Shown here: positions 4,335 through 27,421 of the stretch, one piece after another
How positions within the stretch are numbered: the first letter of the stretch is position 1
Layout of the letters: each line of letters starts with the position of its first letter
NCBI GenBank assembly: GCA_031277475.1
Contig: JAITMJ010000059.1
Coordinates: 1 to 47,906, forward strand
DNA: 47,906 nucleotides
Direction of reading: 5' to 3'
Source of the DNA: Flavobacteriaceae bacterium
GTDB taxonomy: Bacteria; Bacteroidota; Bacteroidia; Flavobacteriales; Weeksellaceae
The notes under the pieces: model-generated
Told to the model about the DNA's origin: nothing
Database searches by the model: none
What the model saw: only the letters and a program-made list of their open reading frames with translations
Position numbers and translations under genes: made by a program

Positions 4335-4710
4335 CTTTTTTTTCGAGGAGAAAAAATATCAACTTTACATAACTAAACCGCTATTTATTTTTAATTTTAG
4401 TATAAATATTTCTTTTCCAATACATTTTATCAAGAATTTCATTGTGACAAAAGTCAAAATCAAAAGTGGCTTTTAGTATTCCTTCATTTCATAATTTTTT
4501 ATCTATCAGCATTTGTCCACTTTTACAAGAGTATGTTTTTTCGGTAGTGTCACAAATCGATTGATACAAATCTATTAATTACTGATAATGAATGTATTAA
4601 AATATAGAATCAGATAATTTATGACACAATCATGTATTTGAGATTCTTTGATTTTTTTTCAAATTAAAGCATTCTCAGGCTCTTTTTAAAAACAAACTTT
4701 CGGATGGTCG
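4335..4710. other. Non-coding gap between menD and the mgtE leader
   Basis: About 375 bp of AT-rich sequence lie between the divergent menD and mgtE promoters. I find no convincing ORF, RNA gene or strong hairpin. It may hold upstream control sites for either gene. Confidence 0.4.
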
Positions 4711-4824
4711 TATCCTTGACAAATTAATTAGATGAAACACGCATGACAAAATATTGACACACAGGCAAATGATTGTACAAAGTGTTCCATCTGACCGCTG
4801 AAAAAAATAAAATATAAACAGATG
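4711..4824 (+). promoter_or_regulatory. Conserved structured leader, copy 1 (mgtE), with -7 box
   Basis: A -7-like box TATCCTTG (4711-4718, one mismatch) precedes a 90-nt leader that begins ATGAAAC at 4732 and ends TAAAATATAAACAGATG at the mgtE start. Stem P1 pairs 4734-4740 with 4782-4788 (six of seven pairs). Stem P1b pairs ACAA 4746-4749 with TTGT 4773-4776. Stem P2 pairs CATCTG 4788-4793 with CAGATG 4819-4824 and so includes the start codon. Near-identical copies precede mrdA and, more diverged, the alpha/beta hydrolase at 19.9 kb. A five-codon frame (M-K-H-A-stop) opens the leader. Pairing is predicted by eye from sequence complementarity. Confidence 0.65.
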
Positions 4825-6204
4825 AAAAAACATGACTTAATTTTAAAATTTGAAGTATTTTTGCACAACCAAATTTCGGAAATGCAAACCACAGACGAAT
4901 TGATTTTCAATGCTGCCGATATTGCAGAAACGCTGAGTGAACTTCACGCAGACGAACGTTTGTTGGCTTTTCTGAAAATTCCGAAAGAATATAAAGCCGA
5001 TGTTTTTTCGCACCTCGACCCCGATTTCCAAGAAGAAACCATCCGAAGCATCGGAAGCGAAGAAGTTTCCGAAATCCTGAACGGAATGACGCCAGACGAC
5101 AGAACCGCACTTTTTGAAGATTTTCCGGACGAACTCATCAAATATTCCATCAATCATCTCAATCCGCAGGAACGCAGAATTGCTCTGAAACTTTTGGGCT
5201 ATCACGCGGATTCCATCGCCAGATTGATGACGCCGTATTACATACAAATTCGCAAAGAATGGACGGTGAAAAGATGTCTCCAGCAAATTAAAAAAGTCGG
5301 CAAAAAAGTAGAAACGCTCAATCATTTATATGTGGTTGACGAAAAAAATTGCTTGATAGACGACCTCGCCATCGGTGCTTTGCTTTTGGCAGATGAAGAA
5401 ACTTTAATATCCGAACTCACTGATAATCATTTTGTTGCAATTACCACCACCACTTCCAAAGAAGATGCCGTTGCTTATTTTGAAAAATACGACAGAACCG
5501 CGCTTCCGATTATTACCGAATCCGGTGTTTTGGTAGGAATTGTAACCATTGACGACATCCTCGACCAAATCGAACAGCAAAACACAGAAGACATTCAAAA
5601 ATTCGGTGGGGTAGAGGCTTTAGACGTTCCTTACATACAAACTTCCGTGATGGGAATGGTGAAAAAAAGAGGATTTTGGCTCACCATTTTGTTTTTTTCC
5701 GAAATGCTGACCGTTTCCGCGATGGGATTTTTTGAAGACGAAATTAAAAAAGTGGTCATACTCGCATCATTCATTCCGCTCATTATTTCCAGCGGCGGAA
5801 ACACCGGTTCGCAAGCGGCAACGTTGATTATCAGGGCGATGGCACTTCAAGAAGTTACACTTCGCGATTGGTGGTATGTGATGAGAAAAGAAATTTTTAC
5901 CGGTTTGTTGCTTGGCGGAATTCTGGGAATTATCGGATTTTCCAGAATATTGATTTGGCATTTGCTCGGTTTGTTCGACTACGGAGAACATTGGTTTTTC
6001 ATTGCATTGAGCGTAGGTTTATCGTTGGTGTTCGTGGTTTTGTGGGGAACACTTTCCGGTTCTATGGTTCCGTTTATTCTTAAAAAATTCAAACTCGATC
6101 CCGCGGCTTCGTCCGCACCGTTTGTCGCCACTTTGGTTGATGTTACCGGTTTAATCATTTATTTCTCGGTTGCCGGATTGCTCTTGACGGGGAAATTGCT
6201 TTAA
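4822..6204 (+). CDS. mgtE: Magnesium transporter MgtE
   Basis: This 460-residue inner-membrane Mg2+ channel/transporter has the full MgtE architecture. An N-terminal superhelical domain (about residues 30-135, with repeated DFQEE and LNPQERR elements) is followed by two CBS domains (about 135-265, LMTPYYIQI through [10 protein letters not shown]). Five membrane segments follow to the end. The pore hallmarks [14 protein letters not shown] and [16 protein letters not shown] are present. In studied members the CBS and N domains sense cytosolic Mg2+ and close the pore. The ATG at 4822 lies inside the conserved leader hairpin; an internal ATG at 4882 is a weaker alternative. The septoil-knot gene follows 18 nt downstream and is probably cotranscribed. 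Confidence 0.95.
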
Positions 6205-7766: not shown

Positions 7767-9704
7767 TCAATCCTCAACCTTCACCGTATCTGGTTCTTTG
7801 TACCAGCCTTTTCGTTTCATTTCGGAAATGTATTGGCGTTTGTATTCGGGCATGAAACTCGAGGTCGTCATTTTGTTGTAAAGATGTTCGCGTTTGATGT
7901 CGCCGGTGATGTATTTTTCGGCAATTAAAGTGCAAGCCGGTCCTGCCCAAGTTGCACCAAATCCGGCGTGTTCCATCACGGCGGCAACTACAATTTTCGG
8001 ATTTTCTGCCGGAGCAATCAACACAAAAATAGAATTGTCTTTCCCCTGCGGAACCTGCGCCGTTCCCGTTTTCGCAAGTTGTGTGAAATCTGCGGATTTT
8101 AAACCGTAAGCCGTTCCGCGCAAAACTACGGCTTCCATTCCTTTTAAAACGATTTCAAAATATTTAGAATCTACCAAAGTTTGATGTTTCACTTTAAATC
8201 TGGGGTCGGGATTTGGTTTTCCGTCAATACTTTTCACGATGTGCGGCGTATAAAACCAACCTTTGTTTGCGATAGCCGCAGAAACATTCGCCATTTGAAG
8301 CGGCGTCATCATAATATCGCCTTGTCCCATTCCGTTGAAAACGGCACCTGTGGGAAGCGGATCCCAATTTTCAAAATCTTTTTTTCCGCTGTATTTGTTC
8401 AGATTTTTTTGCCGATTTTCATAAAATTCGCCGCTCGGAATTCTGCCTCTTGAACCGACTGCCAAATCATTACCCAAATAATCACCAAGTCCGAAACTCG
8501 CCATAATTGCTTTCCATTCGTCCACGCCTTTGGACGGATTGTCGGGATATTTATTGATAATCGCCAAATAAGCGTAAGAAAAATAGCAGTTGCTGGAAAC
8601 TTGAATCGAGGGAATTAGCGGAACTGCGCCGCCGTGTCCTTTGATGCTCAAACCGCGATAATAAAAACCGCCGCCGCACGGAAAAATGGTATTTTCGTCG
8701 AACACGCCCATTTGCATTCCGGAAAGAGCCGTCAAAAGTTTGAACGTGGAACCGGGCGGATATTCGCCTTGAATAGAGCGATCGAAAGTAGGTTTGTTTT
8801 CATAAATCGTGTCGTTGGCGAGTTTGTAGAGATTTTTGGATTTTTCCGGACCGGTGAAAAGATTGGGATCAATGTCCGGACCGGTTGCCAACACCAGAAT
8901 TTCGCCGTTGTTAGGGTCTAATGCCACGATTGCGCCGTGTTTGTTCACCAGCATTTCTTCGGCAAGTTTTTGCAAATCGTAATCAATCGTGAGCGTGATG
9001 TCTTTTCCGGTGATTTCTTCTTTGTCCAATTCGCCGTTTTTGTAGGAACCGATACTTCGGAGTTTGATGTCTTTTTGAACGTATTTCATTCCTTTTTCGC
9101 CGCGAAGTTCTTTTTCATAAGCCTTTTCAATTCCGGATTTCCCGATTAAATCTCCTCGAATATAGTAAAGCGAATCTTTTTTAATTTCTCTTTCGTTCAC
9201 TTCATTGGTGTAGCCGAGCAGATTTCCGGACGTGGAAACTTCGTATTGGCGAATGGGTCTGGAAACGATATCGAAAGCGGGATATTTAAAAATAATTTCC
9301 TGTATTCTGGCGGCATCTTCGCGCGTGAGGTTTTTCTGAAATGTGGTGGGTGAGAGTTTGGAGATTTTTTTCTGCTTAATTTCCAATTTAATTTTATTAA
9401 TTCTGCCGATGAAATCCGATTTGGAAATTTGCAAAAGGTCGCAAAACCCAATGGTATCGAAAGGTTTTTTGAATAGCGCGTCGGTGTATTGAATTTCGTA
9501 GGAAGGTTGATTTCCCACGAGAATTTTTCCGTTTCTGTCGAAAATCACGCCGCGTTGAGGAATGGTGTATTCTATTTTTATGGACGTATTTGCGGCGTTC
9601 AGTGCGTATCTGTCCGTAAAAAGTTGCATATACGCTAATCTTGCTATAAAAATTATAACAATTATCGAAAGAAAAACGCTGATTTTGATGTATTGGGATT
9701 TCAT
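7767..9704 (-). CDS. mrdA: Penicillin-binding protein 2, peptidoglycan DD-transpeptidase
   Basis: This 645-residue class B PBP is anchored by one N-terminal membrane helix (about residues 8-26). The dimerisation domain (about 50-230) is followed by the transpeptidase domain with all three catalytic boxes: STFK (about 322), SSN in the SSNCYFSY segment, and KTG in LAKTGTAQVPQG (about 545). It crosslinks peptidoglycan in the elongasome with RodA and MreBCD. The gene stands alone: no mreC, mreD or rodA flanks it, although the usual context in this class is an mre-mrdA-rodA operon. Its ATG at 9704 lies in the 3' arm of the conserved leader hairpin shared with mgtE, which suggests post-transcriptional control. 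Confidence 0.95.
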   Translation of the reverse strand: MKSQYIKISVFLSIIVIIFIARLAYMQLFTDRYALNAANTSIKIEYTIPQRGVIFDRNGKILVGNQPSYEIQYTDALFKKPFDTIGFCDLLQISKSDFIGRINKIKLEIKQKKISKLSPTTFQKNLTREDAARIQEIIFKYPAFDIVSRPIRQYEVSTSGNLLGYTNEVNEREIKKDSLYYIRGDLIGKSGIEKAYEKELRGEKGMKYVQKDIKLRSIGSYKNGELDKEEITGKDITLTIDYDLQKLAEEMLVNKHGAIVALDPNNGEILVLATGPDIDPNLFTGPEKSKNLYKLANDTIYENKPTFDRSIQGEYPPGSTFKLLTALSGMQMGVFDENTIFPCGGGFYYRGLSIKGHGGAVPLIPSIQVSSNCYFSYAYLAIINKYPDNPSKGVDEWKAIMASFGLGDYLGNDLAVGSRGRIPSGEFYENRQKNLNKYSGKKDFENWDPLPTGAVFNGMGQGDIMMTPLQMANVSAAIANKGWFYTPHIVKSIDGKPNPDPRFKVKHQTLVDSKYFEIVLKGMEAVVLRGTAYGLKSADFTQLAKTGTAQVPQGKDNSIFVLIAPAENPKIVVAAVMEHAGFGATWAGPACTLIAEKYITGDIKREHLYNKMTTSSFMPEYKRQYISEMKRKGWYKEPDTVKVED

Positions 9705-9868
9705 CTGTTCATATTTTATTTTTTTCAGCGGTCAGATGGAACACTTTGTACAATCATTGCCTCCTGCATTTTTATTTTTTTTAATGGTGTCGGCGAATCT
9801 CGTTCCTCGATTTCGCTTGTGTGTCAATATTTTGTCATGCGTGTTTCATTTTGGCACCCGCAAATATA
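9702..9868 (-). promoter_or_regulatory. Conserved structured leader, copy 2 (mrdA), with -7 box
   Basis: On the minus strand a perfect -7 box TATATTTG (9868-9861) precedes the leader, which starts ATGAAAC at 9849 and ends ATATGAACAGATG at the mrdA start. Outside one insertion it differs from copy 1 by only about two bases. The 56-nt insertion (9762-9817) falls between the P1b arms, that is in a predicted loop. P1 (9841-9847 with 9738-9744) and P2 (9733-9738 with 9702-9707) are intact, and the start codon lies in P2. The same five-codon opening frame as in copy 1 is kept. Confidence 0.65.
9762..9817. repeat. 56-bp insertion in the mrdA leader, related to a repeat at 17.4 kb
   Basis: Relative to the mgtE leader this is an extra block. 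On the plus strand it contains a T-rich run, TCGGCGAATCT and TCGATTT, an arrangement found again at 17415-17450 between the hmuY-like gene and the TonB receptor. The shared parts suggest a short dispersed repeat that entered the leader after the leader itself was duplicated. Confidence 0.5.
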
Positions 9869-11195: not shown

Positions 11196-11545
11196 TAAAG
11201 TATTGTTGATCGTCTTAGAAATTATCTAATTTTATATATTAATTCATTCATTATCAATAACTAAAGATTTTCAACATTACCAAAATTTTTGCCCAATTAT
11301 ATCTAAAAAATTATATCTGAATTTGCTAAATATTTAGAATATTTTTTACATAAATTTTTTCTCAAAGTGTTTCGCTAAAATCGCTTGTTTTTATATATCG
11401 AAAATAATTGCAATATTTGCATATACAATTTCACTTTGCATTAGCACCTCGATTTGGAAAAGCAAATCATCAACCAAATAAAAGATGTAAATTTGGAAAC
11501 ATGTCAGTTTTCAACTTTGAATCCTGAACTTTGAATTTAAAAAAA
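11196..11545. other. Non-coding gap upstream of purF
   Basis: About 350 bp of very AT-rich sequence with no convincing ORF. Near its end a GAACTTTGAAT-type dispersed repeat (CTTTGAATCCTGAACTTTGAAT area, 11515-11537) precedes the purF start. The purF promoter must lie here, but I cannot place it with confidence. Confidence 0.4.
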
Positions 11546-19833: not shown

Positions 19834-19937
19834 TATTTTTGAAAAATGAAACCTTCATGACAAAATCATCAACATAAAAATCTGATATTGTGTATTGAAG
19901 GTTCCGTCTGACCATTGAAATAAAATATAAACAGATG
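19834..19937 (+). promoter_or_regulatory. Conserved structured leader, copy 3 (alpha/beta hydrolase), with -7 box
   Basis: A perfect -7 box TATTTTTG (19834-19841) precedes an 89-nt leader starting ATGAAAC at 19846. Blocks identical to copy 1 are CATGACAAAAT, TCTGACC and TAAAATATAAACAGATGA. Between them the sequence has diverged but pairing is kept: P1 is 19848-19856 with 19897-19905 (8 of 9 pairs), P1b is 19860-19868 with 19883-19891 (8 of 9), and P2 is CGTCTG 19905-19910 with CAGATG 19932-19937, including one G-U pair. The opening frame is M-K-P-S-stop. Confidence 0.65.
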
Positions 19938-20570
19938 AATTTATACATCATCAGCGGACTTGGGGCGGATTTCAAAGTTTTGGAACGTATAAAATTTCCG
20001 GAATATTTAAACGTGATTTTCATTGATTGGCTGATGCCCGAAAAAAATGAATCTTTTGAAAATTATGTCCGAAGAATGTCTGAAAAAGTGGACGGTTCCG
20101 AGCCTTTTTGTTTGCTCGGCTATTCTTTCGGCGGAATGCTGGTGCAGGAAATCAATAAACTAAAACCGGCAAAAAAAGTGGTGATTCTGGGAAGTATAAA
20201 ATCGGACAAGGAAAAATCACGGTTCATAAAATCCGGCAGAATTATGAGCATTCCCAAATATTTACCGGAAAAAATATACAGAGAAAACGGCGGTTTATTC
20301 GCGTTTCTTGGAAATTGGTTGGGTTTGAAAAATTCTAATATTTCCGATTATTTCAGAGTTCGAGATCCGTATTATTTGAAATGGTCTGTAGAAAAAGTTT
20401 TCGAATGGAAATTTGAAGAAAATCCCGACGTCATTCAGATTTTGGGCGACCGCGACCTGATTTTCCCGATAAAATATTCTAAACCGAACTACGTCATCAA
20501 AGGCGGAACACATCTTTTTCCCGCAACCAAACACAAAGAAGTTTCGGAAATTTTGAAAAAAATATTTTAA
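19935..20570 (+). CDS. Alpha/beta hydrolase
   Basis: This 211-residue cytoplasmic protein has the alpha/beta hydrolase core: an oxyanion loop ISGLGAD near the N-terminus, the nucleophile elbow GYSFGG (Ser at about residue 69), a late acidic residue in GDRDLIFPI, and the catalytic His in GGTHLFP about 20 residues from the end. The cap region is small. The substrate cannot be told from sequence; relatives are called esterases or lipases. It has the third copy of the conserved leader, with the ATG inside the P2 hairpin, and is transcribed alone before the hairpin at 20.6 kb. Confidence 0.85.
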   Translation: MNLYIISGLGADFKVLERIKFPEYLNVIFIDWLMPEKNESFENYVRRMSEKVDGSEPFCLLGYSFGGMLVQEINKLKPAKKVVILGSIKSDKEKSRFIKSGRIMSIPKYLPEKIYRENGGLFAFLGNWLGLKNSNISDYFRVRDPYYLKWSVEKVFEWKFEENPDVIQILGDRDLIFPIKYSKPNYVIKGGTHLFPATKHKEVSEILKKIF

Positions 20571-22244: not shown

Positions 22245-22275
22245 TTTGTCAATCCGAAAAATATGTGTAATTTCG
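22245..22275 (+). promoter_or_regulatory. Promoter of rpsO
   Basis: A -33 TTTG (22245-22248), a 19-nt spacer and a -7 box TAATTTCG (22268-22275, one mismatch) lie 36 nt before the rpsO start. Confidence 0.6.
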
Positions 22276-22311
22276 CCGCCGTTACATAATAATTATTAAA
22301 ATAATATTGGC

Positions 22312-22581
22312 ATGTATTTAACATCAGAAAAGAAAGCGGAAATCTTCACGAAATACGGAAAATCTGCACAAGACACAGGAAGTCCCGAAGGACAAATAGC
22401 ACTTTTTACGTTCAGAATCAATCACCTTTCAAACCATTTGAAAAACAATCACAAAGATTACAACACAGAAAAGTCTTTGGTAAAATTGGTAGGTAAAAGA
22501 AAAAGATTGTTGGACTATCTTAAAAACAAAGATATCGGAAGATACAGGGCAGTCATCGCCGAATTGGGATTAAGAAAATAG
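22312..22581 (+). CDS. rpsO: 30S ribosomal protein S15
   Basis: The 89-residue protein has the full S15 length and signature: QDTGSPEGQIALFTFRI (16S rRNA contact region), HLKNNHKDYNTEKSL and KRKRLLDYLKNKDIGRYRAVIAELGLRK. It binds 16S rRNA helices in the central domain early in 30S assembly. In many bacteria S15 represses its own translation by binding its leader; a 36-nt leader here leaves little room for a large structure. In most flavobacteria pnp follows rpsO; here it does not, and the next gene is convergent. Confidence 0.98.
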   Translation: MYLTSEKKAEIFTKYGKSAQDTGSPEGQIALFTFRINHLSNHLKNNHKDYNTEKSLVKLVGKRKRLLDYLKNKDIGRYRAVIAELGLRK

Positions 22582-24572: not shown

Positions 24573-25298
24573 GAATTATTTTTTCATTGTTTCATACGAC
24601 AAATTTACAAAATTTTTACAACTAATTGATAAACAATGTTTTGTTATTTTTATGTAGTGTATTTGTATAGTAAAAACTATTTTAAGGGGAGGGGTATTTT
24701 TGTTTTTGTAGAGCATTTGTAGGGGATTCTTTTTTGTTTTTTGTTCATTTTATCCTCTACTTTGCCCCCGAAAAATTAAAAGCCGAGTATAAAAAGCGAT
24801 AAGCAACAGGCAATAAGCCGCAGCAAAGCACATTTTGTGAAATGTTAGGTTCATTGAAACTTTTCGGAAGTAAGCGGAGCAACAAAAACGCTCCGCTCTT
24901 TCGGAAAGGAATATGCCCCCTAACCCCCGAAGGGGGGAATGAAAAAAAACATTCACTCAATATATAAAGTAAGCACTTTGACAAAGTTGAAAATCTTTGT
25001 CAAAGTTTTAAAAACAAAATTCGCAAGAGTTAGTCACTAAAAAAAAGAAAGAGATTGCGGGTCAGACCCGCAATGACGCCAAAAGCAAAAAGCCATTCGC
25101 CAACCGACATATGAAACATAAAAGCACATATCAACCATATATCCTTTCCTCCAAAAGAGGCGAGATCACCGCAAAACATTTTTTACAAAAAATGTTTTTT
25201 CATCAATCCTTAATGTTTCTTTCAGGAACGCGTCTTGTCTTTTGGCGAGACGCTTCCCGAAAGGAATTTCATTAAAAAAAATCAATAATTAAAATATC
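24573..25298. repeat. Repeat-rich non-coding stretch
   Basis: About 725 bp carry several palindromes and no convincing gene: AGCGGAGC/GCTCCGCT (24873-24897), a CCCCCGAAGGGGG hairpin (24924-24936), a CTTTGACAAAG...CTTTGTCAAAG hairpin (24975-25004) that recurs at 27257-27286, TGCGGGTCAGACCCGCA (25057-25073), an AAAACATTTTTT hairpin (25173-25198) and a long imperfect hairpin (25224-25263). These are typical intergenic dispersed repeats. ORFs that can be drawn across them follow the repeats and are not credible genes. Confidence 0.65.
25224..25263 (+). repeat. Long imperfect hairpin upstream of the small membrane ORF
   Basis: CTTTC-A-GGAA-C-GCGTCTTG pairs with CGAGACGC-TTCC-C-GAAAG around an 8-nt loop: 17 pairs with one mismatch, one bulge and one G-U pair. 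It lies about 35 nt before ATG 25299 and would be in the leader if transcription starts further upstream. Confidence 0.55.
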
Positions 25299-27204: not shown

Positions 27205-27421
27205 GCGGTTGGCAATTGGCTTTTTGCTTTTGGCGGTTGGCAATCAGAGATTAGCACTTTGACAAAGTTTCAAATCTTTGTCAAAGTTTTGGGAACGCAA
27301 AAGTCATAAGAGTCACAAAAGTCCCTAAACAATGGAAAAAGAGATGAAACGCTAAAACCCTTTCAGAGTTTTCAAACTCTGAAAGGGTTAAAAACCGAAC
27401 CTTAAACAAAAACCTTAAATA
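27205..27421. repeat. Dispersed palindromes between the two secreted protein genes
   Basis: The gap holds CTTTGACAAAG...CTTTGTCAAAG (27257-27286, second copy of the one at 24975-25004) and AACCCTTTCAGAG...CTCTGAAAGGGTT (27356-27390). A related TTTCAG...CTGAAAAGG pair occurs at 29223-29252. No gene is seen. Confidence 0.65.

Follow-up and report, generated by a model that had tools for sequence, protein, structure and literature searches.

The hairpin that covers the start codon of mgtE in the DNA studied here very probably belongs to a mobile element, short, structured and non-autonomous, that inserts at ATGAA and whose 3' end it forms. The window, by which we mean the whole stretch of 47,906 nucleotides analysed from the genome of a Flavobacteriaceae bacterium (G000), holds three copies, each with a terminal helix, designated P3. 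In copy 1, CATCTG at 4788-4793 is complementary to CAGATG at 4819-4824 on the forward strand; in copy 2 the arms lie on the reverse strand (9738-9733 with 9707-9702); and in copy 3, CGTCTG (19905-19910) faces CAGATG (19932-19937) on the forward strand with one G-U pair. A preliminary description of this DNA had claimed these three arm pairs, and all are present; in every case the 3' arm finishes with the ATG that opens a long ORF. Folded as an isolated helix, P3 reaches -4.9 kcal/mol (z -6.8), with about -4 to -5 kcal/mol overall. It is a real helix, beyond chance. The features of the three copies are as follows.

4732-4826, forward strand: element copy 1, from left ATGAA to right ATGAA, 5' of mgtE (sequence; covariance-model match of 87.2 bits; identical copies elsewhere in the genome).
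4732-4736, forward strand: left ATGAA of copy 1, the left copy of the duplicated target (sequence; empty sites in other genomes).
4736-4740, forward strand: P1 5' arm of copy 1, AACAC (covariation across genomes; fold).
4782-4786, forward strand: P1 3' arm of copy 1, GTGTT (covariation across genomes; fold).
4787-4796, forward strand: CCATCTGACC, the most conserved internal block (sequence comparison of copies).
4788-4793, forward strand: P3 5' arm of copy 1, CATCTG (sequence, fold, covariation).
4819-4824, forward strand: P3 3' arm of copy 1, CAGATG, with the mgtE start codon at 4822-4824 (sequence, fold, covariation).
4822-4826, forward strand: right ATGAA of copy 1, the mgtE start codon in use (ORF 4822-6204; Pfam MgtE).
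4822-6204, forward strand: mgtE, Mg2+ transporter, using the element's ATG (ORF; Pfam MgtE).
7767-9704, reverse strand: mrdA (PBP2), using the element's ATG (ORF; Pfam PBP2-type transpeptidase).
9700-9849, reverse strand: element copy 2, 5' of mrdA (sequence; alignment to copy 1; covariance-model match).
9702-9707, reverse strand: P3 3' arm of copy 2, CAGATG, with the mrdA start codon at 9704-9702 (sequence; ORF; Pfam).
9733-9738, reverse strand: P3 5' arm of copy 2, CATCTG (sequence).
19846-19939, forward strand: element copy 3, of an older subtype whose P1 differs in sequence yet pairs (covariance-model match of 72.5 bits; sequence; fold).
19850-19857 and 19896-19903, forward strand: P1 arms of copy 3, AACCTTCA and TGAAGGTT (sequence; fold).
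19935-20570, forward strand: 211-aa ORF, using the element's ATG (ORF).

Of the gene names given earlier, those of MgtE and the PBP2-type transpeptidase are borne out by Pfam. For the 'hydrolase', the 211-aa ORF at 19935-20570, a Pfam search returned no match; its alpha/beta-hydrolase look is our own reading of GYSFGG by eye. Copies 1 and 2 are identical at 59 of 60 bases over their right part, and the left part also matches; they are recent duplicates, whose mutual agreement alone proves nothing. In copy 2 the P1 loop is longer by an insert of about 56 nt (roughly 9759-9814, reverse strand). The left ATGAA of copy 1 now begins a four-codon ORF (ATG AAA CAC GCA TGA) and, by analogy with two empty sites in other genomes, was probably the original mgtE start. 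As a separate observation, the P1 loop of several copies is interrupted by some 50-60 nt (window 9759-9814, reverse strand, and loci L022-L033 of this genome); such inserts reach about 190 nt, sometimes in tandem, and look like another repeat family, similar in style but smaller, made up of an AATC..GATT hairpin, CGCCGATTCCATTG, an A-rich stretch and a terminal AGGCAA common to adjoining units.

The unit was defined from relatives and from a scan of GTDB genomes. It begins with ATGAA, followed by a stem, P1, that encloses a hairpin, P2, and a conserved loop (ACACA..GATGATTA, of the form ACACA..GG.ATGATTA); after the 3' arm of P1 come CCATCTGACC, an A-rich stretch, AACAG and the second ATGAA, for a compact length of 86-97 nt. 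P1 occurs in subtypes that are unlike in sequence (AACAC/GTGTT, AATGCCC/GGGCATT, AACGCCC/GGGCGTT, AATC-GA-GC/GC-GA-GATT and the AACCTTCA/TGAAGGTT type), and across them 225 of 280 cells form Watson-Crick pairs, against 154 +/- 6 in shuffles. Over 128 covariance-model hits the covariation score is 0.234, compared with 0.076 when shuffled, and all slid registers score below 0.05. P1, P2 and P3 each covary. Because the pattern by which copies were chosen for our first alignment (A1) fixed P3, its invariance there was discarded and the evidence for P3 is taken from the covariance-model search alone, which did not demand an exact P3. That search returned CATCTG/CAGATG in 108 copies, CATGTG/CACATG in nine, CATATG/CATATG in four, CATGCG/CGCATG in one, and six rarer forms, one copy each and some mispaired, frequencies that are biased towards CATCTG because the searched loci had been fetched by a CATCTG pattern; the training of the model relied on that pattern as well. 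The fourth pair of P3 is C-G in 111 of the 128, G-C in 10 and A-T in four, with about 1% of cells unpaired. The CATGTG/CACATG type has undergone a burst of its own in genome G232. Loss of complementarity among homologues, proposed earlier as one of the observations that would refute the start-codon hairpin proposal, was looked for; the homologues keep it through compensatory changes. In Chitinophaga, copies have shrunk to about 50-60 nt (L094 7506-7554, L068 4614-4673) and consist of ATGA, a mini P1 hairpin, CCATCTGACC and AACAGATGA, which suggests a minimal core.

A DNA search of this genome gave 54 matches and the covariance model about 41 confident copies, many of them 93-100% identical with unrelated flanks; the copies at mgtE and mnmA agree at 95 of 95 positions. 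The genes 3' of the copies are likewise unrelated (mgtE, mrdA, mnmA, rodA, recX and others). In a survey of the phylum, 7 of 118 sampled genomes exceeded the threshold, with bursts of 29 and 23 copies and one or two in the others. Among the scan matches listed, the named organisms are all Bacteroidota except one unclassified genome, BMS3Abin03. Searches of plasmid and phage collections returned no match, and the sole hit on a viral contig (L180) looks like chance. Rfam 15 gave no relevant match, either for the window at the gathering cut-off or for seven loci at E-values up to 10, and a search of the literature, with subscription journals largely outside its reach, found nothing on the motif or on start-codon-targeting repeats. 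No long, cargo-bearing version was found in this genome or in the single-contig genome G232. Copies do form tandem arrays, spaced 89-94 bp, in which neighbours have an ATGAA in common (L064, L074, L103, L140 and L171), and at one Algoriphagus site the number of copies is one or two, depending on the species (L145, L175).

Two empty sites show the result of insertion directly. At mrdA of Algoriphagus G087 the sequence reads GGGGAATCCG/ATGAAAGACCAAAGACC (also written GGGGAATCCG/ATGAAAGACC), whereas in G065, whose MrdA protein is 100% identical over the aligned N-terminus, two tandem units lie between GGGGAATCCG/ATGAAATCGAGC and AACAG/ATGAAAGATCAAAGACC (also written AACAG/ATGAAAGATC). At the empty mrdA site, ATGA doubles as a stop/start overlap with the upstream gene, which we take to be mreD, and the duplication therefore leaves both frames intact. 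The second site precedes an ABC-transporter gene in the genus of G007: L278 and L279 read aagaataaaa/ATGAA/GCAACAAAATACC, the last block beginning GCAAC, and the filled L276 reads ATGAA/ACACC...AACAG/ATGAA/GCAACAAAATACC, a duplication of exactly 5 nt, ATGAA. The element inserts at ATGAA and duplicates this pentanucleotide, and at both loci the old start codon has become the left end while the right end provides the new one. The ATG falls inside the P3 helix because ATGAA is the insertion target. On these sequence comparisons the unit behaves as a multicopy mobile element rather than a fixed leader. The earlier proposal that the leader belongs to these genes and evolved as their switch is not supported, in view of the empty sites, the near-identical copies at unrelated genes, the tandem arrays and the patchy bursts; a leader or riboswitch would be expected to stay with orthologues or with genes of related function, and this is not seen, the genes being unrelated.

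How far does the target account for the position at start codons? Among non-coding ATGAA sites, 24-28% in the sampled loci and 30-34% in the window and the G232 loci lie at gene starts. Of 106 copies with no further copy behind them, 74, about 70%, coincide with the start of an ORF (p = 3e-23 against 0.24 and 3e-5 against 0.5). The figure is about 20 of 22 in G232, and 15 of 31, a weak enrichment, in G000. The remaining copies are found in either orientation relative to their neighbours; ORF interiors hold almost none of them, in spite of containing about three quarters of all ATGAA sites. Much of the link to start codons follows from the ATGAA target, combined with selection against insertions that disrupt genes. 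Since the excess at gene starts is greater than ATGAA targeting predicts, most clearly in G232, something further, selection or targeting, acts.

Among the closest parallels are the IS200/IS605 elements and their non-autonomous derivatives. These insert 3' of a short fixed target, and their ends are read by pairing with a guide next to a hairpin, as in IS608; changing the guide reprograms the target (PMC5934647). The present element likewise has a fixed short target, seen as ATGAA on both sides and in the two empty sites, and its hairpin adjoins a CATNTG complement of target and right end, N covarying with the right end. CCATCTGACC can pair with the right CAGATG and partly, through CAT, with the left ATG. 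It differs in that the complement lies 3' of the hairpin, where IS608 has its guide 5', and in that the target stands at both ends, the unit is only about 90 nt and no transposase was found inside or beside it. As to the subterminal imperfect hairpins that IS200/IS605 elements have at each end, P1 and P2 do covary, but as one nested hairpin. In the G232 burst (L307-L326) a C precedes the left ATGAA in 13 of 18 copies, matching the G of the CATGTG guide, but this relation between guide and -1 base is flat for CATCTG copies in other genomes. We do not claim membership of IS200/IS605, because no Y1 gene is tied to the element, the complement flanks the hairpin on the opposite side, and agreement between the -1 base and the guide is not general.

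Structural RNAs usually tolerate more G-U pairs than are seen here, where their share of paired cells is 2.3%, half of what shuffling leads one to expect. This scarcity, with the Watson-Crick covariation, hints at folded single-stranded DNA, and taken together with an invariant target and a complement, inside the element, to both that target and the right end it points to a principle like that of IS200/IS605. As the two loci show, insertion leaves ATGAA on both sides; the left one marks the site as it was before, in many cases the former start codon, while the right one, brought in on the element's side, is taken over as the start codon in use. In the mechanism that we propose, the central CATNTG, which pairs with CANATG at the right end, as the covariation shows, and has CAT/ATG complementarity to the left target, would provide guide-to-end and guide-to-target pairing during excision and insertion. 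The element would probably move as folded single-stranded DNA, much as those of the IS200/IS605 type do. P3 is, we infer, best read as the element's end- and target-recognition pairing. To the host the insertion would be a tolerated, portable translation start that keeps the reading frame and supplies an A-rich upstream stretch, and the hairpin of roughly 5 kcal/mol over the AUG may lower or gate translation. A wider picture, which we put forward only tentatively, is of a phylum-wide family of folded, start-codon-targeting mobile elements of ~90 nt, in which the CATNTG guide would recognise the element's end as well as targets containing ATG; moved by an unrecognised mobiliser, they would time and again exchange the start codons of unrelated genes for their own AUG under its hairpin and so rewire translation.

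One version of the mobile-element reading, a special case of it rather than an exclusive alternative, would make the unit a palindrome of the REP/BIME kind that depends for its movement on a Y1 transposase of the host genome, either TnpAREP or IS200-type; we regard this as possible but somewhat unlikely. Like REP, BIME and REPIN sequences with their TnpAREP (RAYT), the copies are short, dispersed, extragenic, covarying hairpins with lineage-specific subtypes and tandem arrays, and the hairpin comes with a guide-like complement. Unlike them, the unit measures about 90 nt, has a further helix at its end, targets ATGAA and is located at start codons. REP palindromes are short and have a conserved tetranucleotide foot (GTAG/CGTC-type); here an ATGA adjoining P1 is conserved, but the unit is larger and bears that further helix. 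Most carriers have Y1 (PF01797) genes, among them members of subclasses specific to Bacteroidota, whose cognate structures are atypical or unknown (PMC6006769). A genome search for a Y1 partner, covering this genome, 13 carriers and six further genomes, found no association and no TnpAREP belonging to the element. The model search placed a copy within about 1.5 kb at 3 of 35 Y1 loci, one of them weak (E 0.15), with copies on both sides of the Y1 gene at none of the 35; a Chitinophaga genome with seven copies gave no Y1 hit; and there is no transposase ORF inside the element. The nearest candidate, a REP-associated Y1 transposase gene located between trpF and a trpB-like gene (L197 1274-2163), was rejected as mobiliser, being flanked by different repeats, ACCTCACAGGTTTT...AAACCTGTGAGGTC, which are apparently its own cognate REPs. 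The copies adjoining another Y1 gene (L213) look accidental.

Several other systems share single traits with the element. HEARO, the IscB-associated RNA, is a structured element directly upstream of ATGA, but the present element is far smaller, comes with no visible HNH gene and has no counterpart in Rfam at E-values up to 10. Mobile promoters and Correia-type MITEs are dispersed small elements that land 5' of genes and may alter expression; ours lands at the start codon and replaces it, rather than a promoter, and is also found inside operons (mreD-mrdA, trp). S15-Flavobacteria and similar leaders have structure near the AUG and come from the same phylum, but they are gene-specific and autoregulatory, whereas the element is multicopy, mobile and placed at unrelated genes.

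Local domestication of a mobile element is a further reading: its structure would first have served its own movement, and certain copies would later have been retained as translational attenuators or gates of the genes on which they landed. Bacteroidota initiate without Shine-Dalgarno pairing, as the preliminary description had assumed, and are sensitive to structure at the start; in Flavobacterium johnsoniae an A at -3 is favourable and structure at the start lowers initiation (PMC6847099). The element places P3 over the AUG and a C at -3 in lieu of the favourable A, both of which predict lowered initiation, so damping or gating of translation by P3 is plausible. Because P1, CCATCTGACC and P3 are unchanged in four close orthologues (L276, L277, L284 and L286) while the loop varies, local domestication is possible, and the enrichment at start codons beyond the target null points the same way. 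However, the fifth orthologue, L283, has decayed, and the retained set is small and closely related. On balance we consider domestication possible but somewhat unlikely.

Much of the same evidence could be claimed for a cis-acting switch selected for regulation, in which CATCTG sequesters the AUG until a signal or an alternative pairing (P1, with its GGATGATTA loop) frees it: the AUG lies inside a covarying helix of about -5 kcal/mol, initiation in this phylum is structure-sensitive, copies are enriched at gene starts, and the core is constant in the four orthologues. We think this improbable. The element is not fixed to genes, as the empty sites attest, and most orthologous sites lack it; the genes have no function in common. 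Copies whose ATG starts no gene bear the same helix, including those in arrays where the ATG is merely the left end of the next copy, while some gene-start copies are without it, CATCTG having been lost in L039 as well as in the decayed L283. The few G-U pairs also speak against it. The switch between P1, P2 and an open form proposed earlier is unsupported, and is not needed to explain the element. A self-splicing or translational-bypass element, removed or skipped at the RNA level to leave the insertion silent, would suit the exact ATGAA direct repeats at both ends, the strong structure and the tolerated tandem copies, but is very improbable given that it would be tolerated inside genes, yet ORF interiors (about 75% of ATGAA sites) are nearly empty, that unit lengths are not all multiples of three and that no known ribozyme matches.

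Read as a mobile element, the unit explains how one leader comes to stand before unrelated housekeeping genes such as mgtE, mrdA, mnmA, rodA and recX: all were hit by the same tiny element. It would survive because ATGAA targeting returns a start codon and keeps stop/start overlaps such as mreD-mrdA. Pairs of filled and empty orthologues provide a natural test of how Bacteroidota ribosomes deal with an AUG hairpin when there is no Shine-Dalgarno pairing, and the element poses the question of what moves 90 nt carrying a complement to their own target. Annotation pipelines and RNA-motif searches could take its copies for riboswitches.

Other repeats and structures were seen in the window. A REP-like hairpin, ACTTTGACAAAGTT...CTTTGTCAAAGT, occurs as two 38-nt copies, 95% identical, at 24972-25009 and 27253-27290. 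An S15-Flavobacteria ribosomal protein leader (Rfam), without its hairpin insert, lies at 22268-22314 on the forward strand. A 58-nt inverted pair, intergenic and 83% alike, at 4575-4632 (forward strand) and 11207-11264 (reverse strand), represents a further dispersed repeat.
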